In this document: positions 4,840 through 53,715 of the stretch, piece after piece | How the letters are laid out: the number at the start of each line of letters is the position of its first letter | Position numbering within the stretch: the first letter of the stretch is position 1 | Assembly: GCF_030388665.1 (NCBI RefSeq) | Contig: NZ_CP128846.1 | Location: 1,426,001 to 1,490,000, forward strand | Direction: 5' to 3' | Length of the DNA stretch: 64,000 nt | Source: Streptomyces flavofungini | Lineage (GTDB): Bacteria; Actinomycetota; Actinomycetes; Streptomycetales; Streptomycetaceae | The notes under the pieces: model-generated | Database searches by the model: none | Told to the model about the DNA's origin: nothing | What the model saw: the letters and a program-made list of their open reading frames with translations, nothing else | Position numbers and translations under genes: made by a program

Positions 4840-5157
4840 TCAACTCAGCGCCCGTACCCCCGCCGTGACCGCGGCCGCCACCAGGATCACCAGCGGTACG
4901 GGGGCCTTGAGCCGCCAGGCCACCAGTGCCCCGGCGAAACCGGCGAGCCTGGCGTCGAAGGTCATGCCGTGCGCGCCCGCCGCGCCCACGAGCTGGGTGA
5001 CGACGAGGACGGCGAGGAGCGCGGGCGTCAGGTACTCGACGAATCGCGGGAACCATCCGGGCAGTTCGCGGTCGCCCATCACCAGGGAGCCCGCGCCCTT
5101 GATGAGGAAGGTGGTCGCCACCAGGGCGCCCACGACGATCCACGGGTCGCTGCTCAT
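4840..5157 (-). CDS. azlD: AzlD-family branched-chain amino acid exporter subunit
   Basis: A 105-residue AzlD-type membrane protein with about three to four hydrophobic segments, opening WIVVGALVATTFLIKGAG. AzlC and AzlD together export branched-chain or related amino acids and analogues. The start overlaps the end of azlC by 4 bp (5154-5157), indicating translational coupling. It is the last gene of the operon. In this setting the exported substrate could be the product of the operon rather than leucine or valine; that is inference. Confidence 0.88.
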   Translation of the reverse strand: MSSDPWIVVGALVATTFLIKGAGSLVMGDRELPGWFPRFVEYLTPALLAVLVVTQLVGAAGAHGMTFDARLAGFAGALVAWRLKAPVPLVILVAAAVTAGVRALS

Positions 5158-5858
5158 CGGGACCTCCACGTCCACACGACGGCGATGACGCAGGCCACGG
5201 CGATGGCGGTGTCGGGCACGGCGACGGCGGTGAGGACCGCGGCACAGAGAGCGGCGGTGGCGGCCGCCGTCCGTTTGGACGCGGTGCCCAGGTGCGGGGC
5301 GAGCAGCAGGAAGAACAGGACGGGCGAGACGGCGTCCAGGCCGTAGGTGAGGATGTCCACGGCCTTGAACGGGCCGATCGCGCCCACCAGGGTGCCGAGG
5401 ACCCAGCCGAGCCACAGGACCACCCCGGAGGACAGCAGCCGCACCCGGTCGAAGCGCCCGTCGGCGTCGCTGGCGATGGCCCAGGACTCCTCGATGACGA
5501 GCTGCGACTCGACCGCGCGGCGGGCCCTGCCACCGCGCAGAGCGGGCAGGATGGCGAAGCCCATCACCAGGTAGCGCAGGTTCAGCAGGGTCCCGGCGAC
5601 GGCCGCCGCGGCCCAGCCGCCGCCGTTGACGATCACCGAGACGGCGGCGAACTGCGAGGAGCCGACGAAGACCAGGCCGGACATGGAGGTCGCGGCGAGC
5701 GCGCTGAAGCCCGCGCCCCTGGCGAGGACGCCGAAGGAGATCCCGAAGGCGAAGATCGCGACGGTGAACGGCACGGCGGCCCTGGCCCCCGTGGCCCAGG
5801 CCCCGCGCCGCCCGTCCGCCGGGACCTGCCGGGCGGGCCCGGCCCCGCCGTCGGTCAT
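5154..5858 (-). CDS. azlC: AzlC-family amino acid exporter, large subunit
   Basis: A 234-residue polytopic membrane protein of the AzlC family. Recognisable segments are PFTVAIFAFGISFGVLARGAG, the SSQFAAV motif, and LNLRYLVMGFAILP, typical of AzlC/YgaZ. It forms a two-component exporter with AzlD. The ATG at 5858 overlaps the aminotransferase stop by 4 bp, and its own stop overlaps azlD by 4 bp, so all three are coupled. The direct coupling to a branched-chain-type aminotransferase ties the exporter to amino acid production. Confidence 0.9.
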   Translation of the reverse strand: MTDGGAGPARQVPADGRRGAWATGARAAVPFTVAIFAFGISFGVLARGAGFSALAATSMSGLVFVGSSQFAAVSVIVNGGGWAAAAVAGTLLNLRYLVMGFAILPALRGGRARRAVESQLVIEESWAIASDADGRFDRVRLLSSGVVLWLGWVLGTLVGAIGPFKAVDILTYGLDAVSPVLFFLLLAPHLGTASKRTAAATAALCAAVLTAVAVPDTAIAVACVIAVVWTWRSR

Positions 5859-6796
5859 CCGCGCTCGCTCACCGCGGGGGCGGTCCTCGCGGGCGCCAGG
5901 ACCGCCTCCTGCCCGCGCACGATCCGTCCGTACGCCGCCGCGAGCGCGGCCCCGACCGCGCCGAGGGGGAACCGCAGGGCGTCGACGGCGGTGACGGGCT
6001 GTACCTCGTAGGCCGTGCCGGTGAGGAACACCTCGCTGGCGCGGGTCAGTTCGGACGGGTGCAGGTGGCGTTCGACGACGGAAAGGCCCCGGTCGCGGGC
6101 GATGTCGATGACGGTACGGCGGGTGATGCCGTCCAGGACGCACTCCGGGGGCGGGGTGTGCAGCTCCCCCGCGATCACCAGGAACAGGTTGGCGCCGGTG
6201 GCCTCGGCGAGGCGGCCGCGGTGGTCCAGGAGCAGCGCGTCGTCGTGGCCCGCCGCCTCGGCCTCCTGTCCGGCGAGCGCGCCGAGGGCGTAGAGGGCGG
6301 CGGTCTTGGCGCTGACGGGCGCGGTGTCGGGGGCGGGGCGGCGCCAGCGCGAGGTGCGCAGGCGGATGCCGCGGGGCCCTTCGGTGAAGATCCGCGGCCA
6401 GGGCCAGGCGGCGATGGCGACGTGCACGCGGCTGTCCGGCGCGACCAGGCGCAGGGTGTCGCTGCCGCGCCAGGCGACCGGGCGTACGTAGCCGTCGGTG
6501 AGGCCCGCGACGGCGACGGTCTCGGCCGTGGCGGCGGCGAGGTCCGGGACGGACCAGGGCAGTTCGAAGCCCATCGTGCGGGCCGACGCGGCGAGCCGGG
6601 CGGTGTGCTCGTGGAGCTTGAAGACGCGCCCGTCGTAGGCCCGTTCGCCCTCGAAGACGCTGCCGCCGTAGTGCAGCCCGTGGCTGAGCACGTGCAGCCT
6701 GGCCTCGCGCCAGGGCACGAAGTCCCCGTCGTACCAGATGACGCCGTCCCGTTCGTCGAGGGGCGGCGCGGCGGGTGCGGGGGCGGCCCGGGTCAT
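5855..6796 (-). CDS. Class-IV aminotransferase (branched-chain aminotransferase type)
   Basis: A 313-residue PLP fold-type IV enzyme. Family hallmarks visible are IWYDGDFVPWREARLHVLSHGLHYGGSVFEG near the N-terminus, the PLP-lysine region SAKTAALYALGA, EATGANLF, and LDGITRRTVIDIARDRG. It transfers an amino group between glutamate or a similar donor and a 2-oxo acid. Housekeeping IlvE is usually elsewhere in Streptomyces, so this looks like a pathway-specific copy. It is coupled by 4-bp overlaps to the NTF2-like gene (6793-6796) and azlC (5855-5858). D-amino-acid transaminase and aminodeoxychorismate lyase share the fold, so substrate is uncertain. Confidence 0.85.
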   Translation of the reverse strand: MTRAAPAPAAPPLDERDGVIWYDGDFVPWREARLHVLSHGLHYGGSVFEGERAYDGRVFKLHEHTARLAASARTMGFELPWSVPDLAAATAETVAVAGLTDGYVRPVAWRGSDTLRLVAPDSRVHVAIAAWPWPRIFTEGPRGIRLRTSRWRRPAPDTAPVSAKTAALYALGALAGQEAEAAGHDDALLLDHRGRLAEATGANLFLVIAGELHTPPPECVLDGITRRTVIDIARDRGLSVVERHLHPSELTRASEVFLTGTAYEVQPVTAVDALRFPLGAVGAALAAAYGRIVRGQEAVLAPARTAPAVSERG

Positions 6797-7242
6797 GTGG
6801 CGAAGCCCCGCTCGGCGTAGGGGAAGCCTTCGAGTTCGTTGACGGGGACGGTGTCGTCGCGGCGCGACGCGTAGTAGATGCGGACCTCGTCGATGAGTCC
6901 GGCGTCGTCGAAGCGGTAGACCTCGGCGCCGCGCAGGACCTTGCCCAGGCGGGGCTTGAAGGCGGTCCACTCGCAGACGGCGGTGCGGGTCTGCTCGTCG
7001 GCGTACACGGCGTCGACGGCCCAGTGGGAGTCGTTGGCCCGCACGTCGGCGCCCCAGCGCTCCACGATGGGGTCGATGCCGGGGACGGGTCCGGACATGC
7101 CGTGGGCGAGGTAGTGCACGACCCGCTCGGACACGCACTGGGCGAACAGGTCCCGGTCGACCTTGTTGCACGCCTCGAAGTACTGTCGTACAGCGGCTTC
7201 CATCGCGGCCCGGTCCAACGTGGCACGCTCAGGGCTTCCCAT
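6793..7242 (-). CDS. NTF2-fold (SnoaL-like) protein in the BacA-like operon
   Basis: A 149-residue SnoaL-like protein (AAVRQYFEACNKVDRDLFAQCVSERVVHYL at the N-terminus; VCEWTAFKP; AEVYRFDDAGLIDEVRIYYA near the C-terminus). NTF2-fold proteins include isomerases and cyclases acting on carbanion-prone ketones, so an isomerisation step on a dienone or enone product is possible, but no catalytic dyad can be assigned. It overlaps the aminotransferase by 4 bp and follows the DUF6421-like gene after an 82-bp gap, the only gap of any size inside the operon. Confidence 0.7.
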   Translation of the reverse strand: MGSPERATLDRAAMEAAVRQYFEACNKVDRDLFAQCVSERVVHYLAHGMSGPVPGIDPIVERWGADVRANDSHWAVDAVYADEQTRTAVCEWTAFKPRLGKVLRGAEVYRFDDAGLIDEVRIYYASRRDDTVPVNELEGFPYAERGFAT

Positions 7243-7324
7243 GGCTGCTCGCCCTCTCGTCAGTGGTCATCGGTGTTCCCGCGGGTGCGTGCGGGTGCAT
7301 GAGGGCACACCCGCCGCGCCCCGC

Positions 7325-8599
7325 TCACAGCTCCGCCGGCGCGAACCGCAGCGGCGGCAAGGACGTGAGGTGCTCCCGTGCCCGCAGCAGCGCCCGCTGG
7401 TCGCCGGTGAAGGCGTAGCGGTCGCCGTCCGCGCCGGTGGGCAGCAGGGTGCGTACGAGTTCCTTGGCCGCCGCGCGGTACTCCGCCGGTGTGCCGACGG
7501 ACGCTTCCATACCCTCGACCGCGTCGATCAACTCCCGCAGCCCCATGAGGGCCCGGTCGAGGTCCAGGCGCAGCCGCCCGTCGCGGTCGGCGGTCAGGGC
7601 GCGGCGGGCGCGCAGCCAGGAGTAGAGGAACACACCGGTGCCCGCGTCGAAGTTGCGGACGGCGTGCGCGTCGAGCGGGTACCGGAACACGCGCTCGAGC
7701 AGGACCATGGCGACCTGCTCGTCGGCGTAGGGGACGGCGGGGTCCGTGTGGCAGGCGAGGACGGTCTTCGCGTCGACCTTCAGCTCTTCGAGGAGGCCGA
7801 TGAACCAGTTCGTCTTGAGTTTCACGTGCCGGTCGAGGGGCCACCGGCCCTGGTGGTGGAAGTAGTCGTGGAGATATCCCCACACGGAGCGGGCCTGGTA
7901 ACACACGTCGGGGTCGAGTCCGGCCGAGTCCTGGGGCACGGATTCGGCGGTGAGCACGGACTGTGCGGACGGCAGGGCGAACGTCTCGTGAATCCGGCGG
8001 AATTTGTTGAAGAAGAAGATCGCGTAATTCTGTTCGGTGACGCGGTCGTGGGCGGCGACATTCTCGGGGAAGAAGACGATGCAGTTGCCCTGGGAGAACC
8101 CCGCGCTGCCCGCGAGCAGGACGGTGGCCTGGCAGTTGTTCTTGGGGTGCGGATAGTGGACGGCGAGTTCGGCCAGCGCGTCCGGTTCCTTGCGGCGGAC
8201 GAGGAAGAACTCCAGGCGCCGGCCCACCGGCGGCGCGCTGTTGGTGGTCTGGACGGGGGCGAGGAACGCCGCCCAGTCGCCGTCGGCGGGGGCGGTGAGG
8301 GCGTCACGGCTGCGGGCGAAGTGCGGCGGCGTGTCCAGGCCCGCGGCCAGCCAGTCGTCGACGTCGGCGGCGAGCGCGTCGGCCTGGGCCGTGCGGCCGT
8401 GCCCGGCGAACCAGGCGGTGGCCTCGTCCTTGACGGCGAGCAGGCGGCGGCGGTCGTCGTCGTCCGGGGCGGGGACGGTGCCGTCGTCGCGCTGGCGGGT
8501 GCGGAAGTCGTCGATGCGGGGCAGCAGGCCGTGGCCGAGGCGGGTGGCCTCGTCGAGCAGGTCGTCCTGGAGGCGGTGGGCGGCCCGCGCGGCGCTCAT
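7325..8599 (-). CDS. DUF6421-like protein, possible metal-dependent enzyme
   Basis: A 424-residue cytoplasmic protein with no signal peptide. From memory it matches the pattern of DUF6421 proteins of Streptomyces: CIVFFPENVA (172-181), then a HDYFHHQG motif (244-251), PLDRHVK, the LLEELKVD segment (269-276), and VFRYPLDAHAVRNFD. The H-D-x-x-H pair followed about 25 residues later by paired glutamates resembles a metal site, but the spacing is not that of a classical HEXXH protease. No function is established for the family as far as I know. Its start overlaps the BacA-like stop by 4 bp (8596-8599), which suggests the two act in the same pathway. Confidence 0.65.
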   Translation of the reverse strand: MSAARAAHRLQDDLLDEATRLGHGLLPRIDDFRTRQRDDGTVPAPDDDDRRRLLAVKDEATAWFAGHGRTAQADALAADVDDWLAAGLDTPPHFARSRDALTAPADGDWAAFLAPVQTTNSAPPVGRRLEFFLVRRKEPDALAELAVHYPHPKNNCQATVLLAGSAGFSQGNCIVFFPENVAAHDRVTEQNYAIFFFNKFRRIHETFALPSAQSVLTAESVPQDSAGLDPDVCYQARSVWGYLHDYFHHQGRWPLDRHVKLKTNWFIGLLEELKVDAKTVLACHTDPAVPYADEQVAMVLLERVFRYPLDAHAVRNFDAGTGVFLYSWLRARRALTADRDGRLRLDLDRALMGLRELIDAVEGMEASVGTPAEYRAAAKELVRTLLPTGADGDRYAFTGDQRALLRAREHLTSLPPLRFAPAEL

Positions 8600-9249
8600 C
8601 GGCCGGACTCCCGCACGGGGTGGGCCGGTTCCCGCACGGCGTGGGCCGGTCCCCCCGCGTGCGGTTCGGGTTCCCGCACGTGGTGGACGGTGAAGACCAT
8701 CGGCACCTCACCGAAGCTGCGCACGACCCGCAGGCCGTGGGCCCGCGCGGCGACGACGGTGGTGACGCACGCGTCGGCGCGGCCCGCGGCGCAGTCGATG
8801 GCGGCCTGGGCGTTGCTGGTCACCAGGCGGCGTGCGCGGCGGTCGGGGACGAGCCCGGCCGGGGCGGGGTGGGTGGCCACGGTGCGGGGCTCGGCGCGGG
8901 CTCCGGGCGGGGCGGCGAGCACCATCTCGTGGGTGGGCCACAGGAAGCAGTCGACCATGCGGCAGGTGCGCAGGTTGCCGAAGACGAGGGTGTGCAGTTC
9001 GGGGTAGACGGCGCAGGCGAGCAGCGCGTGTTCGCCGTTCCTCGGCACGCTCTCCATGGCCTCTTCGAGGCAGGTGTGCAGGACGACCTGTCCGTCGTCG
9101 GCGCGCCCGTGGCGCCGGAGCCACAGGTGGGCGGCGGACTCCAGGTTGGTTCCCGTGGGGCCGAGGGTGTGCAGGTACCGGATCTCGTCGATCGCCGACG
9201 ACGGCGCCCACGGCGGAGAAGCAACGCTCAATTGTTCCCCCGTCATCAT
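8596..9249 (-). CDS. BacA-like prephenate decarboxylase homologue
   Basis: A 217-residue protein resembling the periplasmic-binding-like prephenate dehydratase fold. It opens YLHTLGPTGTNLESAA (25-40), aligning with the NTLGPEGTSSEYAA start of Bacillus BacA. Later matches are THPAPAGL against SHPSPINL, an S/T-rich NAQAAIDCAAGRAD segment, and VRSFGEVPM against VKTFKSIPM. The Thr-Arg-Phe motif of true prephenate dehydratases is absent, as in BacA, which decarboxylates prephenate without aromatising it (bacilysin/anticapsin pathway). No aromatic-amino-acid ACT domain is present. The ATG at 9249 has GGGAG upstream. It heads the operon. Confidence 0.72.
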   Translation of the reverse strand: MMTGEQLSVASPPWAPSSAIDEIRYLHTLGPTGTNLESAAHLWLRRHGRADDGQVVLHTCLEEAMESVPRNGEHALLACAVYPELHTLVFGNLRTCRMVDCFLWPTHEMVLAAPPGARAEPRTVATHPAPAGLVPDRRARRLVTSNAQAAIDCAAGRADACVTTVVAARAHGLRVVRSFGEVPMVFTVHHVREPEPHAGGPAHAVREPAHPVRESGR

Positions 9250-9566
9250 TTCCACTCCCTCTGGAATTTCTCCCGAAATTCTCCGGTCGTGCTGGGGCGA
9301 CACTTCTCGGGGCGTACTGGGACAACGCCCGGAACGTACGCCACCGGTTCAGGTGCGCGTCGGCGATCCTAGGCGTCCGCACCCCGCTCCGGCCAGGGCG
9401 TCCAGGGCCCGCGGAGCCGTTTTCCGTACTCTGGCCAATTCGGCCCGCCCGGCGTTCCTGAATTCCACCGACAAATCACATCGGGCCGGGCGAAAGAGCG
9501 TCGTTTTCATCGCCCCGCCCGTGATGTGGCCAGCCGTATTACGTCACGGCGACCGCAATGCGCCGC
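9250..9566. other. Intergenic region upstream of the BacA-like operon
   Basis: This 317-bp gap separates the M1 peptidase stop from the BacA-like start, all on the minus strand. It is less GC-rich than its surroundings in parts and carries an inverted repeat at 9264-9281. It probably holds the operon promoter. I could not assign convincing -35/-10 elements. Confidence 0.6.
9264..9281 (-). promoter_or_regulatory. 7-bp inverted repeat in the leader of the BacA-like operon
   Basis: GAATTTC (9264-9270) and GAAATTC (9275-9281) are perfect complements with a 4-nt spacer, 14 bp upstream of the start codon and just before its ribosome site. It is strikingly AT-rich for this genome. It may be an operator or a small leader hairpin. 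Confidence 0.5.
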
Positions 9567-10898
9567 TCAGGCGGCAGCAGTGGGCAGCGACGGCAGCCGG
9601 GTGTCGTACAGCCAGGCCTGGAACAGCTCGTCCACCGGGCCGTCCGCGTACCGCTCGACGTGGGCGGTGAACGTCTGCGTGGTGACCACGCCGTGCCGGT
9701 GGACCCTGGTCCACTCGCGCAGCATCCGGAAGAACGCGTCGTCGCCGAGCGCGCAGCGCACCGCGTGCACGGCGAGGCCGCCGCGTTCGTAGAGCCGGTC
9801 GTCGAACATCAGCTTGCGGCCGGGGTCGGCCAGCTTGAGGTCCTGCGGCTGCGCGGCGAGCAACCGGTGGGCGACGGCGGCGAGTTCCGGGGCGGTGCGG
9901 GCGCCCGAGCGCTCCGACCAGAGCCATTCCGCGTACTTGGCGAGGCCCTCGTTGAGCCAGATGTGCCGCCAGTCGGCGATGGTGACGCTGTTGCCGAACC
10001 ACTGGTGGGCGAGCTCGTGCGCCACCAGGCGCTCCGCGCTGCGGGCACCGTCCACGTGGTTGACGCCGAACAGCGACAGGCCCTGGGCCTCGACGGGCAC
10101 GTCCAGTTCCTCGTCGGCCACGACGACGCCGTACTCGGCGAAGGGGTAGGGCCCGAAGAGCTCCTCGAACAGCGCCATCATCTGCGGCTGGCGCGCGAAG
10201 TCCCGGGAGAACTCGGCGAGGAGGTGCGCGGGGAAGTGCCCGGTCTGCGGCACCCCGCTGAGCCCGGGGTCGCCGAGGATCGCCGTCTGGTACTTGCCGA
10301 CGGACAGGCCGACCAGATAGCTGGGCGTGGGCGCGGGCTGTTCGTAGAGCCAGGTGGTGGTGGAGGCCTTGGTGGTGCGGGTGAGGAGGCGGCCGCCGAT
10401 CACCACCTGGTACGCCGAGGGCGTCGTGATCGAGATCTGGTACGCGGCCTTGTCGGCGGGCCGGTCGTTGCACGGGTACCAGGACGGCGCCCCGACGGGC
10501 TGGCTCGCGACCAGCGCGCCGTCGGTCAGCTCCTCCCAGCCGAGCCCGCCCCAGGGGCTGTTGACCGGCTTGGGGTTGCCCGAGTAGTGCACGTCGACGG
10601 TGAAGGCGGACCCGGCGGGCAGGGCCTTCGCGGGGCGCACCCGCAGCTTGCCGCCCCGGTGCGAGTAGTGCGCGGCCCGGCCGTCGACACGGACGCGGCC
10701 GATGCGGAAGTCGGCGAGGTTCAGCTGGAACTCGGTCAGCGGTGCCCGGCCCGTTATGGCGCTGAGCCGGGCCGCGCCCGCGAGCCGGTTCGGCGCGGGC
10801 CGGTAGTCGAGTTCCAGCTCGTAGCGGTGCACCCGGTAGCGGGAGTCACCGTTGTCCGGGAAGTAGGGGTCCGGTGCTGTCTTCGGCTGCCCGCTCAA
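9567..10898 (-). CDS. M1-family zinc metallopeptidase
   Basis: A 443-residue aminopeptidase-N-type enzyme lacking the long C-terminal domain of PepN. The zinc site HELAH (294-298) is followed by WFGNSVT and WLNEGLA with the third ligand at Glu317. The substrate-anchoring VEAQG (269-273) replaces the usual GAMEN. No signal peptide, so probably cytoplasmic. It lies 71 bp downstream of the Pls-type NRPS gene on the same strand. Enzymes degrading poly-epsilon-lysine are zinc peptidases, so a role in trimming or detoxifying the polymer is plausible but inferred. Confidence 0.88.
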   Translation of the reverse strand: MSGQPKTAPDPYFPDNGDSRYRVHRYELELDYRPAPNRLAGAARLSAITGRAPLTEFQLNLADFRIGRVRVDGRAAHYSHRGGKLRVRPAKALPAGSAFTVDVHYSGNPKPVNSPWGGLGWEELTDGALVASQPVGAPSWYPCNDRPADKAAYQISITTPSAYQVVIGGRLLTRTTKASTTTWLYEQPAPTPSYLVGLSVGKYQTAILGDPGLSGVPQTGHFPAHLLAEFSRDFARQPQMMALFEELFGPYPFAEYGVVVADEELDVPVEAQGLSLFGVNHVDGARSAERLVAHELAHQWFGNSVTIADWRHIWLNEGLAKYAEWLWSERSGARTAPELAAVAHRLLAAQPQDLKLADPGRKLMFDDRLYERGGLAVHAVRCALGDDAFFRMLREWTRVHRHGVVTTQTFTAHVERYADGPVDELFQAWLYDTRLPSLPTAAA

Positions 10899-10969
10899 CG
10901 CTGGTCCGCTCCCTGCCCTGTGCTCGTACGACGTGACGCGCGTGCTGTCCTGCCACGCGGCCCGCCGCC

Positions 10970-13900
10970 TCAGGGACGCCAGGCCTCGATCGGGTTGCCC
11001 AGCCAGCGGGTGTCGGCCGGGACCGACTCGCCGGCCATCACGAGGGACGCGGGGCCGAGGGTCGACCGGGCTCCGATCTCGCTGCCGGGCAGCACGATCC
11101 CGCCCGGACCCAGGGTGGCGCCCGCACGGAGGACCACAGTATCCGTCCGCAGGATCCGATCATGGAAGAGGTGCGTCTGCAGGACACAGCCCCGGTTCAC
11201 GCTGGTCGCGGTCTCCAGGGTGACCAGATCGGTCTCCGGCAGCCAGTAGCTCTCGCACCACACGCCCCGGCCGACGCGCGCGCCGAGCCCGCGCAGCCAC
11301 AGGTTCAGGACCGGGGTGCCGGGGACGGCTCCGGCGAGCCAGGGCACCGCGACCATCTCGACGAAGGTGTCCGCGAGTTCGTTGCGCCATACGAAGCCGC
11401 ACCACAGCGGGTGCTCGCCGGTGCGGTGGCGGCCCACGAGCAGCCACTTGGCCACGATCGAGGTGAGGCAGCCGAGTGCCCCGGCGGCGAGCAGGACCGC
11501 CCCGGAAAGCAGCGCGGCGAGCCAGAGCCCGTGCCGGGCGGCCAGGGCGAGCAGCCCGACCACGAAGATCACCAGGGCGGCCGAGCAGAACACGGGGACG
11601 ATCCGGCACGCCTCGACGAGCGCACGGGCCAGCTTGAGCCGGACGGGTGGCGCGTAGGTGCGGCTGTCGTCGGACCCGGCTGCCGCGCGGGGCAGCTTGA
11701 CCGGCGGCAGGCCCAGGTAGGAGCTGCCCTTCTTGGCCTTCTTCGGGGTGGCCGACAGGACGCCGACCAGGCCGTCGTCGGGCACGGAGCGGCCGGGCGC
11801 GGTCATGCCGGAGTTGCCGAGGAAGGCGCGGCGGCCGATCTCGGCACGGCCGATGCGCACCCAGCCGCCGCCGAGCTCGTAGGGCGCAGTCAGGGTGTCG
11901 TCGGCGAGGAACGCGCCGTCGCCGACCGTGGTGAGGCTCGGCAGGGCGAGCACGGTGGACACTTCGGCGCCGCGTCCGACGCGCATGCCGAGCAGCCGCA
12001 TCCACAGGGGGGTGACGAGTCCGGCGTACAGCGGGAAGAGGGTCTGCCGGGACAGGTCCATGAGCTGGGTGACAGTCCACGCCTGCCAGCCGATGCGGCT
12101 GTGGGTGGGGCGGGTGCCCGTGCGCAGGCCGAGGCTGAGCAGCCGGACGCCGATCAGGATCAGCAGGGCGTACGCGAGGCCGAAGGCCAGGGTCGCGGGG
12201 GCGAGGGCGAGCAGCGCGCCGCGTACGGCCTCGCCGAGGGCGGCGTCGGCGGGCACGAAGGCGCGGGCGACGAAGAGCGCGGGCAGGGCGGCGGCGAGCG
12301 GCAGGAGGCTGAGGGCGATGCCCGTCACGCCGTACATGGCGCGCCAGTGCACGGCGCGCGGCGGGCGCTGCTCGGGCCAGTCGCGCTTGGCCTTGCCGAG
12401 CTTGCCCGCGGGCGATCCGGCCCAGCGCTGGCCGGTCGGGATCGGGCCGCGCACGGCGGAGCCGGGGGCGACCTCGGCGCGCTTGCCGACGCGGGCGCCC
12501 GGGAACAGGATGCTGCGGGTGCCGACCACGGCGCCCGCGCCGACCTTGATCGCGCCGATTTCGAGGCGGTCGCCGTCGAGCCAGTGCCCGGACAGGTCCA
12601 CCTCGGTCTCGACGGCGCAGCCGCGGCCGAGCTTGAGCAGCCCGGTGACCGGCGGCAGCGAGTGCAGGTCGACCTCGGCGCCGACCTTGACGCCGAGCGC
12701 GCGGGCGTAGCGCTCCAGCCAGGAGCCGGTCAGGGAGGTCGCGCCGCTGTACTCGGCGAGGCGTTCGGCGGTCCACAGGCGCAGGTGCACCGAGCCGCCG
12801 CGTGGATAGCTGCCGGGCTGGACGCCGCGCAGCAGCAGCCGGGCGCCGCCCGCCGCGACGGCGAGACGTCCGGGCGGGCTGTACAGGACGAGGACGCCGA
12901 CGGCGATGAGCCACCAGGGCGCGGACAGGGCCCACGGGTAGGCGCCGAAGTGGTGCAGGACGTTGCCGAGCGCGGCGAGCGCGACCGTCCAGCGCAGTCC
13001 GACGAGGGTGAACAGCGGGAGCAGCAGGGCCGCCTGGGCGGCCTGGGCGCGCACGGGCACGGGGGCGATCTCGCGGGCGGCGCCGTCGTCCTGCGCGGAC
13101 TTCTCCAGGCGGCGGGCGAGCTTGCGCAGGACGGGGCGTTCGTAGATGTCGATGACGGCGGCGCTCGGGTAGCGCGTGCGCAGCCGGGTGGTGAGCTGGG
13201 CGGCGGCGATGCTGCCGCCGCCGATCGCGAAGAAGTCGTCACAGGCGCTGGTCACGGGGATGCCGAGGGTCTCGCTCCACTGCTCGGCGAGCCAGGCCTC
13301 GGTGCCGTACAGCTGCTCGGCCTTGCCGCCGGTGTCGAGGTCGGGCAGGGGCCAGGGCAGGGCGTTGCGGTCGACCTTGCCGGAGGTGCGGGTGGGCAGG
13401 TCGGCGACGGGGGCGAGCAACGGCACGAGGGCGGCGGGCAGTTCGGCGCGCAGCTTCTCGACGGCGGCCGCGTGGTCGAAGCCGTCCTGGGGGACCAGAT
13501 AGCCGACGAGGAGCTGGTTGCCGCCGCGTGCGGTGCGGACGGCGGCGGCCGCGCCCGCGACGCCGGGCAGGGCCTGGAGGGCGGCGTCCACTTCGCCGAG
13601 TTCGATGCGGCGGCCGCCGAGCTTGATCTGTTCGTCGGTGCGGCCGAGGAAGATCAGACCCTCGGGGTCGGCCTTGACGAGGTCGCCGCTGCGGTAGGCG
13701 CGCCGCCAGCCCATGGACTCCAGGGGCGCGTACTTCTCAGCGTCCTTCTCCGGGTCGAGGTAGCGGGCGAGCCCCGCGCCGCCGATGACGAGCTGACCGC
13801 TCTCCCCCATCGGCACGGGCCGGTCCGCCTCGTCGACGACGACGAGCTCCCAGCCGGCCAGCGGCAGCCCGATCCGGATCGGCTCGTCGCCGGTCATGAG

Positions 13901-14857
13901 TGCGGCGCAGGCGACGACCGTGGCCTCCGTCGGGCCGTAGGTGTTCCACACCTCGCGGCCCTCGGTGACCAGGCGCTGGGTCAGCTCGGGCGGGCAGGCC
14001 TCGCCGCCGAAGATCAGCAGCCGGACGTCGCCCAGGGCCTCGGGCTCCCACAGCGCGGCGAGCGTCGGCACGGTGGAGACCACGGTGATCTCCTGCTCGA
14101 CCAGCCAGGGCCCGAGGTCGGCGCCGCTGCGCACCTGCGAGCGCGGCACGGGCACGAGGCAGGCGCCGTAGCGCCAGGCCAGCCACATCTCCTCGCAGGA
14201 CGCGTCGAACGCCACGGAGAGGCCGGCCATGACGCGGTCGCCCGGCCCGATGGGCTCCTCCTGGAGGAACAGGGCGGCCTCGGCGTCCACGAACGCGGCG
14301 GCGCTGCGGTTGCTCACCGCGACGCCCTTGGGCTTGCCGGTGGAGCCCGACGTGAAGATGATCCACGCGTCGTCGTCGGGCTCGGGCCGACCCGCGGGGA
14401 CGTCGGCGGGCTTGTCGACGGTGAAGGCGTGTCCGGCGCCGATGACGGTGCGCACGCCCGCCTCGCCGAAGACGAGGTCGGCGCGCTCGTCGGGGTCCTC
14501 GGCGTCGACCGGGACGTAGGCGGCGCCCGCGGCGATGACGGCGAGGATCGCGACGTACAGCTCGTTGGTGCCGCTCGGCACGCGGACGCCGACGCGGTCG
14601 CCCCTGCCGACTCCGGCGGCGTCGAGCCGGCGCCGTAGCTGTTCCACCTCGGCGGCCAGGGCGCGGTACGTCAGCTGGCGGGTGCCGTCGTCGAGGGCGG
14701 GTTCGTCGGGGTGTGCCCGCACGGTCGCGTCGATGATGTCGACCAGGGTGCGCGGTGCGGCGGCGCTCCCGGTGCTGAAGAAGGCCGGCTCCTCGAACTG
14801 TTCGCTCATCTCCGCTTCGAGCAGGCTGAGCTCAGCGTTCGCGCGCGTGGCTTCCAT
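10970..14857 (-). CDS. Pls/PosA-family single-module NRPS (amino acid homopolymer synthetase)
   Basis: A 1295-residue membrane NRPS matching the layout of poly-epsilon-lysine synthetase (about 1319 aa). Order: adenylation domain (about 35-500; TSGSTGKPKG at 169-178, catalytic Lys494), carrier domain (FFAIGGGSIAAAQL, phosphopantetheine Ser549), then hydrophobic segments alternating with three tandem acyltransferase-like domains carrying hexapeptide-repeat features, ending VNRGCVLQTHLFHDRI and WLGNPIEAW. There is no classical condensation or thioesterase domain. Hand alignment to PheA gives specificity residues D218, A219, E222, S261, I282, G284, T306, V314, V315, K494 (DAESIGTVVK), near the published lysine code DAESIGSVCK. 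ATG at 14857 has AGGA upstream. Product likely a cationic homopolymer; lysine, ornithine or diaminobutyrate cannot be separated by eye. Confidence 0.9.
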   Translation of the reverse strand: MEATRANAELSLLEAEMSEQFEEPAFFSTGSAAAPRTLVDIIDATVRAHPDEPALDDGTRQLTYRALAAEVEQLRRRLDAAGVGRGDRVGVRVPSGTNELYVAILAVIAAGAAYVPVDAEDPDERADLVFGEAGVRTVIGAGHAFTVDKPADVPAGRPEPDDDAWIIFTSGSTGKPKGVAVSNRSAAAFVDAEAALFLQEEPIGPGDRVMAGLSVAFDASCEEMWLAWRYGACLVPVPRSQVRSGADLGPWLVEQEITVVSTVPTLAALWEPEALGDVRLLIFGGEACPPELTQRLVTEGREVWNTYGPTEATVVACAALMTGDEPIRIGLPLAGWELVVVDEADRPVPMGESGQLVIGGAGLARYLDPEKDAEKYAPLESMGWRRAYRSGDLVKADPEGLIFLGRTDEQIKLGGRRIELGEVDAALQALPGVAGAAAAVRTARGGNQLLVGYLVPQDGFDHAAAVEKLRAELPAALVPLLAPVADLPTRTSGKVDRNALPWPLPDLDTGGKAEQLYGTEAWLAEQWSETLGIPVTSACDDFFAIGGGSIAAAQLTTRLRTRYPSAAVIDIYERPVLRKLARRLEKSAQDDGAAREIAPVPVRAQAAQAALLLPLFTLVGLRWTVALAALGNVLHHFGAYPWALSAPWWLIAVGVLVLYSPPGRLAVAAGGARLLLRGVQPGSYPRGGSVHLRLWTAERLAEYSGATSLTGSWLERYARALGVKVGAEVDLHSLPPVTGLLKLGRGCAVETEVDLSGHWLDGDRLEIGAIKVGAGAVVGTRSILFPGARVGKRAEVAPGSAVRGPIPTGQRWAGSPAGKLGKAKRDWPEQRPPRAVHWRAMYGVTGIALSLLPLAAALPALFVARAFVPADAALGEAVRGALLALAPATLAFGLAYALLILIGVRLLSLGLRTGTRPTHSRIGWQAWTVTQLMDLSRQTLFPLYAGLVTPLWMRLLGMRVGRGAEVSTVLALPSLTTVGDGAFLADDTLTAPYELGGGWVRIGRAEIGRRAFLGNSGMTAPGRSVPDDGLVGVLSATPKKAKKGSSYLGLPPVKLPRAAAGSDDSRTYAPPVRLKLARALVEACRIVPVFCSAALVIFVVGLLALAARHGLWLAALLSGAVLLAAGALGCLTSIVAKWLLVGRHRTGEHPLWCGFVWRNELADTFVEMVAVPWLAGAVPGTPVLNLWLRGLGARVGRGVWCESYWLPETDLVTLETATSVNRGCVLQTHLFHDRILRTDTVVLRAGATLGPGGIVLPGSEIGARSTLGPASLVMAGESVPADTRWLGNPIEAWRP

Positions 14858-53057: not shown

Positions 53058-53715
53058 GTCGGTCTCCCTGGGTGGGGCCGCCGAGGCACAGCGCGGTGGC
53101 CGGGCTCTGCAGCAGGGTGTGGACGAAGAGAAGGTCGGCGCCGCCGTGGTCGGCTGCGGCGATCCGGTGCGGGGTCAGCGAGTCGAAGTGCGCGCTGTCG
53201 CCGGGGGCGAGGGTGTACGCGGTGTCGCCGAGCCGGAGCCGGAGCCGTCCGGTGAGGACGTACAGCCACTCCTCGCCCGGGTGGACCCGCACGATGTCGC
53301 CCTGCGCGCCGTGCGGGACGTGCACCCGCAGCGCCTGCATGCCCCGGCCGGGCGCGCCCGCCTGCCAGTACGTCCAGCCACCGGCCGCCGTGGGCTCCAT
53401 GTCGGGGGCGCGGACGACCGCGTGCCGGTCGGCAGGCGTCTCGCCGAGGAGCTCGGAGACCGTCGTACCGTAGGTACGGGCGAGCGCGAGCAGCATCGGC
53501 AGGGACGGCTGGCGCTGTCCGGTCTCCAGGCGGGACAGGTGCGCGGGCGAGAGACCGGCCGCGCGGGCGGCGGCCTCCAGGGTCAGCGCGGCGCGTCGGC
53601 GCAGGTCCCTCAGCTGGGGCGCGACGACGGGCAGGGCATCCGCGACGGCGTCGGCCCGGGGGGCGGCGGCGTCGCCGGGCTCCGGGGCGGGCCCCGCGGG
53701 CTCGGCAGGGTTCAT
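53044..53715 (-). CDS. XRE-family regulator with C-terminal cupin domain
   Basis: A 223-residue HTH-cupin regulator. LRDLRRRAALTLEAAARAAGLSPAHLSRLETGQRQPSLPMLLALARTYG is the HTH; GDIVRVHPGEEWLYVLTGRLRLRLGDTAYTLAPGDSAHFDSLTPH is the cupin. The binding sites at 53736-53770 lie just upstream, consistent with autoregulation. It is coupled to the small membrane protein gene. Confidence 0.9.
   Translation of the reverse strand: MNPAEPAGPAPEPGDAAAPRADAVADALPVVAPQLRDLRRRAALTLEAAARAAGLSPAHLSRLETGQRQPSLPMLLALARTYGTTVSELLGETPADRHAVVRAPDMEPTAAGGWTYWQAGAPGRGMQALRVHVPHGAQGDIVRVHPGEEWLYVLTGRLRLRLGDTAYTLAPGDSAHFDSLTPHRIAAADHGGADLLFVHTLLQSPATALCLGGPTQGDRHDGI

Follow-up and report, generated by a model that had tools for sequence, protein, structure and literature searches.

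PolE, a DUF6421 protein of the polyoxin pathway, was published in October 2025 as an iron- and pterin-dependent amino acid oxidase that requires Fe2+, O2 and tetrahydrobiopterin and acts on isoleucine; the passages cited here also give its motif, HE/DxxHx(21-23)E, and describe homology to dipeptidyl peptidase III (PMC12614342). For the L-amino acid ligase BL00235 of Bacillus licheniformis, the cited part of a review lists the products Met-Gly and Met-Met, and the cited passages do not mention its native gene neighbours. The role of TdaC, from the tropodithietic acid clusters, is called obscure in the cited part of a 2020 review, which suggests a conversion of prephenate, maybe to phenylpyruvate, and according to the cited passage of a 2026 paper Janthinobacterium produces tropodithietic acid without tdaC. 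Further papers were cited in part (PMC7497051, PMC9147277, PMC6920838, PMC13163973, PMC13421778, PMC8283759). We analysed 64,000 nucleotides of the soil bacterium Streptomyces flavofungini (contig NZ_CP128846.1, positions 1,426,001 to 1,490,000; this whole stretch is called the window), in which six minus-strand genes form an operon. Gene 1 encodes a prephenate dehydratase (PDT)-like protein, gene 2 a DUF6421 protein, gene 3 an NTF2-like protein, gene 4 a class-IV aminotransferase and genes 5 and 6 the exporter subunits AzlC and AzlD.

Support was found for a conserved operon whose genes resemble those of a pathway to a small non-protein amino acid. In our judgement there is about an even chance that its product is a small oxidised, probably non-aromatic amino acid which is derived from prephenate and secreted. 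An earlier note on this DNA had proposed an anticapsin-type route starting from BacA, in which the DUF6421 protein might act as a reductase; its amino acid pathway and the linkage of the genes were upheld, whereas the identification of gene 1 as BacA and the reductase role were not.

The association between gene 1 and DUF6421, for which the earlier note had asked for a neighbourhood survey, proved very strong. It was evaluated in a census of 295 genomes of the window's genus, which is less biased than the named loci described below and in which only some first-look candidates per genome (11 and 6) were scored, with misses possible. Gene 1 of the window clade (above 200 bits) returned 22 matches in 21 genomes, and 13 weaker matches (48-82 bits) occurred in 13 other genomes. 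A DUF6421 match of any kind was present in 291 of the 295 genomes; the clade linked to gene 1 comprised 19 genes in 19 genomes, scoring 420-647 bits, the next among the matches listed reaching 138 bits. Each of the 19 shared contig and strand with gene 1 and lay 20-1212 nt from it. An adjacent DUF6421 was missing for three of the 22 gene-1 matches, namely G457 (gene 1-aminotransferase-MFS), G560 and G651:C108, where none was found within 12-20 kb of sequence, G457 being the one apparent possible miss.

Of 116 loci recovered by similarity to the window's family, the best 80 make up the named loci, which are hence a biased sample. Within 6 kb of gene 1 they carried DUF6421 (66 loci), class-IV (52) or class-I (9) aminotransferases, NTF2 (15), AzlC (17), EamA (25), cupin (8), RraA-like (8) and 3-deoxy-D-arabino-heptulosonate 7-phosphate (DAHP) synthase genes (3). 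The core of gene 1 and DUF6421 was found in Actinomycetota, Bacillota, Pseudomonadota and Cyanobacteriota as well as on plasmids, and the Serpentinimonas plasmid pSMB1 displayed gene 1-DUF6421-NTF2-LysE, following the gene order of the window. DUF6421 was fused to the aminotransferase in P0214 and in Catenuloplanes (L036), and a gene 1-aminotransferase-MFS unit without DUF6421 occurred in L142. In Pantoea endophytica (L073, 10540-11746) DUF6421 is split over two reading frames, either truly or by sequencing error; in Pantoea sp. SS70 it occupies one frame.

The fold of the DUF6421 protein was then compared with known structures. The AlphaFold model (pLDDT 95.7) matched best, among Protein Data Bank (PDB) entries searched with Foldseek, the crystal structures of SmPolE and SnPolE (E 2.9e-15, TM 0.67/0.75), followed by dipeptidyl peptidase III, with 20-22% identity to PolE in the fold search. 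The DUF6421 profile aligned to SnPolE through the metal motif with 102 bits. The window protein reads HDYFH, with E at x22 and x23, and H244, D245, H248, E271 and E272 were invariant in all 69 aligned DUF6421 rows. The assignment to the class of Fe/pterin-dependent amino acid oxidases, predicted from fold and motif, is well supported, and the window genome also encodes a pterin-4a-carbinolamine dehydratase. Because the complete HDxxHx(22)E motif and the PolE fold both point to an oxidase, a reductase role is unlikely; the Foldseek matches and the profile alignment to SnPolE speak against it. In an alignment inspected by eye, Y157 and Y280, which are mutated in deposited SnPolE variants, corresponded to Phe195 and Phe317, and F140 to Phe177, so that the pocket is unlike that of PolE; the Tyr-to-Phe changes suggest a substrate different from PolE's. 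A second DUF6421 copy occurs in the same genome (L001), with 747 bits to the Pfam model and 30% identity to the window copy over 314 aa.

Gene 1 encodes a 217-aa protein with a single PDT-like domain; Pfam returned no match at E up to 1 other than PDT (E 0.13, 12.5 bits against a cut-off of 25.2). Its identity to BacA is about 24% (E 1e-10), and neither of two Bacillus PheA proteins matched it significantly. The NxTRF motif of PheA reads EVPMVFTVH in the window protein; in the alignment, TRF was present in 4/4 PheA rows, in none of nine BacA-type rows and in none of 32 rows of the window clade. The window family typically carries HTLGPxGTN[LC]E and ends with [VI]xMxF[ST]xH, and rows similar to BacA, AerD and SalX mostly read TLGPxGTSS. 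Searched against PDB sequences, gene 1 and its profile gave matches at chance level only.

A tree was calculated from 45 rows (32 window-type, nine BacA-type and four PheA), for which the tool issued a long-branch warning. The four PheA rows split off (100/99), the 32 window-type rows formed one side of a branch (99/95) and the nine BacA-type rows another (88/71). With the same warning, gene 1 falls outside the BacA/AerD/SalX clade and on its side with respect to PheA, and these separate branches make it a third branch on the BacA side. The placement on that side and the missing TRF motif agree with the BacA-like reading; identity with true BacA was ruled out by the separate clade. Likewise, gene 1 grouped neither with prephenate dehydratases, whose TRF motif it lacks, nor with solute-binding proteins, to whose family it showed no match. 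The clade includes a Phaeobacter porticola protein (L084, 45.5% identity), which we take to be TdaC from its neighbours. The database names of close relatives are divided between "bacilysin biosynthesis protein BacA", which many of them bear, and "prephenate dehydratase" for others.

The true BacA reference proteins were taken from Bacillus genomes, in which the adjoining cupin and short-chain dehydrogenase-like open reading frames (ORFs) are presumably BacB and BacC. AerD-like references came from three cyanobacteria, beside a BacB homologue, and the SalX-like reference from Micromonosporaceae, beside a DAHP synthase match, their names resting on similarity to BacA and on these neighbours; L094 was rejected as an AerD. 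Among 41 genomes of the genus Bacillus, bacA was present in 24 and a gene-1-type protein in eight (context checked in five of the eight), none having both, a pattern that relatedness of the genomes may account for.

Relatives of gene 1 without DUF6421 provided a further line of evidence. A cupin and an RraA-like gene occurred together in eight of the 14 named loci of this kind (L033, L034, L035, L069, L072, L075, L076, L082), and the cupin queries had no match in the 66 named loci that bear DUF6421. The five cupins that were compared matched BacB in its C-terminal cupin (E 7e-10 to 2e-5). The other six loci were L046; L045, on a contig that stops 260 nt past the match; L049 and L081, which group with TdaC; and L066 and L071 from Paracoccus onubensis, which are not among the tree rows. 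L075, L076 and L144 have a class-II DAHP synthase and a chorismate mutase-like ORF beside gene 1 (CM_2 30.7 bits in L075 and, just below the cut-off of 27, 26.9 in L144; in L076 the ORF was identified by similarity), and a DAHP synthase was recorded there in L143 and L082. The Pseudoalteromonas plasmid L086 holds a DAHP synthase/chorismate mutase inside a DUF6421-type cluster. On the basis of homology to BacA and of the cupin and shikimate genes of its relatives, gene 1 is predicted to be a prephenate-using decarboxylase. The homologues with a cupin and RraA-like gene, some with a chorismate mutase-like ORF and DAHP synthase (L034, L072, L075, L076, L082, L143, L144), also form a module of their own, for which no description was found in the open-access literature.

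The remaining genes of the operon were assigned by family. The NTF2-like protein matched Pfam SnoaL_2 (38.5 bits, cut-off 27), and its structure model (pLDDT 90.4) had 3G16 as best PDB match (40% identity; the function of 3G16 is not assigned), followed by ketosteroid isomerases at TM of about 0.6-0.65. The Serpentinimonas plasmid encodes an NTF2-like protein of 42% identity at the same operon position. It is plausible from the model that this protein is an isomerase, and the proposal that it stands in for BacB is reasonable given the ketosteroid-isomerase-like fold and the BacB-related cupins that accompany gene 1 in relatives without DUF6421. Pfam also recognised DUF6421 (83.3 bits, cut-off 25), the aminotransferase (Aminotran_4, 181 bits, cut-off 28.5), AzlC (106.4, cut-off 32.1) and AzlD (45.5, cut-off 23.7), so that the exporter pair is present. 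The AzlC score against the equivalog TIGR00346 was 52.4, well under its cut-off of 332.35, and the aminotransferase is IlvE-like, exceeding the cut-offs of two NCBIfam models (TIGR01122 and NF005146).

The gene order was borne out by the ORFs and direct translation, and the regulator does converge on the operon (Table 1). Each of the four overlaps (8596-8599, 6793-6796, 5855-5858 and 5154-5157) is an exact ATGA of 4 bp; the DUF6421-NTF2 junction, passed over in the earlier note, is an 82-nt gap (7243-7324). Gene 1, DUF6421, NTF2, AzlC, AzlD and the convergent regulator were all found in 15/15 window-type loci (L003-L017), and the aminotransferase in 14, with none found in L016. A conserved TAGGAT block upstream of gene 1 was kept in 12 of 14 aligned regions (the window and 13 loci, L007 and L016 being left out of the alignment), L015 and L017 lacking it. 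The block is probably a promoter, from which a single transcript would start; a consensus scan for promoters and terminators gave no match.

Table 1. Features of the operon and its surroundings, in window positions
Feature	Positions	Strand	Basis or remark
Gene 1, PDT-like, 217 aa	8596-9249	minus	ORF list and direct translation, ATG start
Gene 2, DUF6421, PolE-like, 424 aa	7325-8599	minus	ORF list and translation, ATG start
Gene 3, NTF2/SnoaL-like	6793-7242	minus	ORF list and translation, ATG start
Gene 4, class-IV aminotransferase	5855-6796	minus	ORF list and translation, ATG start
Gene 5, AzlC, amino acid exporter subunit	5154-5858	minus	ORF list and translation, ATG start
Gene 6, AzlD, amino acid exporter subunit	4840-5157	minus	ORF list and translation, ATG start
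AfsR/SARP-like regulator, 1092 aa	1476-4754	plus	Converges on operon; AfsR/SARP-like by family match
Metal/pterin motif HDYFH...EE, codons 244-272 of gene 2	7784-7870	minus	
Conserved block with -10-like TAGGAT, about 110 nt before gene 1	9356-9372	minus	Upstream alignment

As had been noted, the operon lacks BacB- and BacG-type genes: it has no cupin, and no reductase was recognised by Pfam among its six genes. Queries for cupin, RraA, chorismate mutase and DAHP synthase against the window returned only a cupin match of 31 residues (53191-53283). Upstream of the operon lie an M1-type aminopeptidase-like gene and a non-ribosomal peptide synthetase of the Pls/PosA family (9567-14857); both were excluded from the pathway because only three of the 15 window-type loci (L003, L004, L006) have close homologues of them.

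Cassettes other than the window type, which carries NTF2, the aminotransferase and AzlCD, took several forms. The pSMB1 variant has NTF2 and LysE, and in Salinarimonas (L067) DUF6421 is followed by LysE, no NTF2 being found. In a dipeptide type, EamA and an L-amino acid ligase replace AzlCD; the ligase was present by best hit in 26 of the 66 DUF6421-bearing named loci, 24 of these with EamA; a count of 42 ligases was inflated by cross-matches among ATP-grasp families, and the best-hit figure was used instead. Ligase cassettes were found in Streptomyces, Glycomyces, Amycolatopsis, Catenuloplanes, Bacillus, Priestia, Staphylococcus, Pantoea, Marinobacter and Vibrio (28% match). The Bacillus haynesii ligase is the BL00235 orthologue (919.7 bits, 425/425 residues of 3VOT); this orthologue (L079, 8689-9966) and a close Bacillus homologue (L068, 8690-9940) stand directly before gene 1 and DUF6421, a gene order that points to the native pathway of the crystallised ligase. 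On the mobilizable plasmid p14BME10-2 of Staphylococcus xylosus (L083, L146; 25.6 kb), the order DMT exporter-ligase-gene 1-DUF6421 is followed by three GNAT acetyltransferase genes, possibly for self-protection. Bacillus, Priestia, Pantoea and Marinobacter have gene-1 proteins that cluster in the tree (100/99), a sign of horizontal transfer.

A radical-SAM type was recognised in 15 named loci. Its clusters (L040 and 14 others, from Streptomyces, Micromonospora and Couchioplanes) combine DUF6421, a class-IV aminotransferase, gene 1 and an ATP-grasp protein, and L040 has two class-IV aminotransferases together with MFS and a GNAT-like protein. The Vibrio cassette (L054, 7169-11774) lies about 1 kb downstream of what we take to be a glmS-like gene. 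The site beside glmS is the usual Tn7 target. The neighbourhood may thus be a mobile-element insertion site or a link to glucosamine synthase as target; as a hint of an anticapsin-type target it was left unused, the gene being the sole full-length copy in the loci searched and the site the usual one for Tn7.

From the computed operon, linkage, predicted folds, motifs and clade we infer a route in which every chemical step, the substrate and the product are proposals. Gene 1 would remove CO2 from prephenate without aromatisation, yielding a cyclohexadienyl keto acid, in which the NTF2-like protein might conceivably shift a ring double bond. The IlvE-like aminotransferase would convert the keto acid into an amino acid, on which DUF6421 may perform an iron- and pterin-dependent desaturation, hydroxylation or epoxidation, and AzlCD, judging from its family, would export the free amino acid. 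In the sister cassettes the same kind of amino acid may leave as a dipeptide through the L-amino acid ligase and the EamA exporter. The product is most likely an antimetabolite, perhaps a weapon against competitors.

Several observations weigh against a route from prephenate, to begin with the fact that models and fold matches do not prove an activity, and many of them lean towards an aliphatic pathway. There, DUF6421 would desaturate or hydroxylate a leucine-, isoleucine- or methionine-like amino acid, gene 1 would act through its PDT-like fold on a different acid from prephenate, and the aminotransferase and AzlCD would handle compounds of branched-chain type. The aminotransferase passes two IlvE-type cut-offs and AzlCD belongs to a branched-chain-type exporter family; moreover, PolE acts on isoleucine in the cited passages (PMC12614342), and for BL00235, which has its orthologue in the B. 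haynesii cassette, the cited review lists Met-Gly and Met-Met. TdaC, a member of the gene-1 clade, has no established function or proven prephenate role in the passages cited and is dispensable for tropodithietic acid in Janthinobacterium. Three shikimate queries gave no match in the window, and none within 6 kb of gene 1 when the 66 named loci with DUF6421 were searched; the tie between DUF6421 and prephenate rests on L086 plus a DAHP synthase match of 31% about 8 kb away in L058. On the other hand, chorismate mutase-like and DAHP synthase genes adjoin gene 1 in several relatives, BacB-related cupins are among its partners, gene 1 falls on the tree side of the BacA-type proteins, and the pocket differs by eye from that of PolE, where Y157 and Y280 align to Phe195 and Phe317. 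On balance we consider the aliphatic pathway unlikely, yet a serious rival to the route from prephenate.

A further alternative is an aromatising gene 1, in which the enzyme, standing alone, would boost phenylpyruvate and phenylalanine and DUF6421 would hydroxylate or desaturate phenylalanine (for example to meta-tyrosine or beta-hydroxyphenylalanine), as aromatic amino acid hydroxylases do. Some clade members exceed the Pfam PDT cut-off (the B. haynesii homologue with 28.9 bits, several with PF00800), several sources label clade members prephenate dehydratase, shikimate genes adjoin gene 1 in some relatives, and the cited review proposed a conversion of prephenate to phenylpyruvate by TdaC. 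Nevertheless, Thr-Arg-Phe occurs in 0/32 clade rows as opposed to 4/4 PheA controls, sister loci have cupin partners, and an extra dehydratase would account poorly for the strict pairing because the cell already makes phenylalanine; we regard this explanation as quite improbable. The low identity of gene 1 to BacA (about 24%) also counts against the prephenate route, and it bears on the version in the earlier note, where a true BacA would start a route to an anticapsin-type amino acid and the NTF2-like and DUF6421 proteins would take the places of the BacB isomerase and the BacG reductase. The distant BacA homology and the ketosteroid-isomerase-like fold fit that version, which is nonetheless very hard to sustain: gene 1 belongs to a clade apart from BacA, the fold and motif of DUF6421 indicate an oxidase, the opposite redox direction, and Pfam recognises no reductase among the six genes.

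If a non-aromatic amino acid is indeed made from prephenate, the cassettes might represent a horizontally spread family of amino acid antibiotics, a suggestion we offer tentatively and with more doubt than confidence. The third PDT-like branch would supply a non-aromatic C9 amino acid to a PolE-type ring oxidase (acting, for example, by epoxidation as in anticapsin), which Streptomyces would secrete free and which Bacillus, the Staphylococcus plasmid, Pantoea, Marinobacter and other actinomycetes would secrete as a Trojan-horse dipeptide via BL00235-type ligases. If true, this would give the BL00235-type ligase its native pathway and might reveal a bacilysin-like antibiotic class. The parts are of known kinds, and the novelty lies in their combination, in the third gene-1 clade and in the native setting of BL00235; no report of these three was found in the open-access literature, subscription papers lying outside the search. 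The proposal would bring three loose ends into one pathway, namely DUF6421, TdaC, now placed in a family with recurring partners, and BL00235. Since the core is spread over four phyla and plasmids, one assay could assign chemistry to many clusters.

Finally, the operon was compared with the known systems. Bacilysin/anticapsin biosynthesis in Bacillus (BacA-BacG) likewise unites a TRF-less PDT-like enzyme, an aminotransferase and an exporter in one operon; the sister cassettes include an L-amino acid ligase, the counterpart of BacD, and relatives without DUF6421 have a BacB-related cupin. It differs in that gene 1 belongs to another clade, and the window operon has a PolE-type oxidase, lacks a cupin, reductase and ligase, and uses a class-IV aminotransferase, whereas BacF is of fold-type I. 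With PolE of the polyoximic acid pathway (PDB 9j2e, 9j3g and relatives; cited passages of PMC12614342) the window protein shares the DUF6421 fold and the HE/DxxHx(21-23)E motif, yet identity is 20-22%, its partner is gene 1 rather than PolF, and two tyrosines of the SnPolE pocket are replaced, by eye, with phenylalanine. TdaC shares the gene-1 clade, the P. porticola protein being 45.5% identical, but no DUF6421 or aminotransferase was annotated in the one tropodithietic acid region viewed. As for BL00235 (PDB 3VOT), its B. haynesii orthologue directly precedes gene 1 and DUF6421, whereas the window operon has AzlCD and no ligase.

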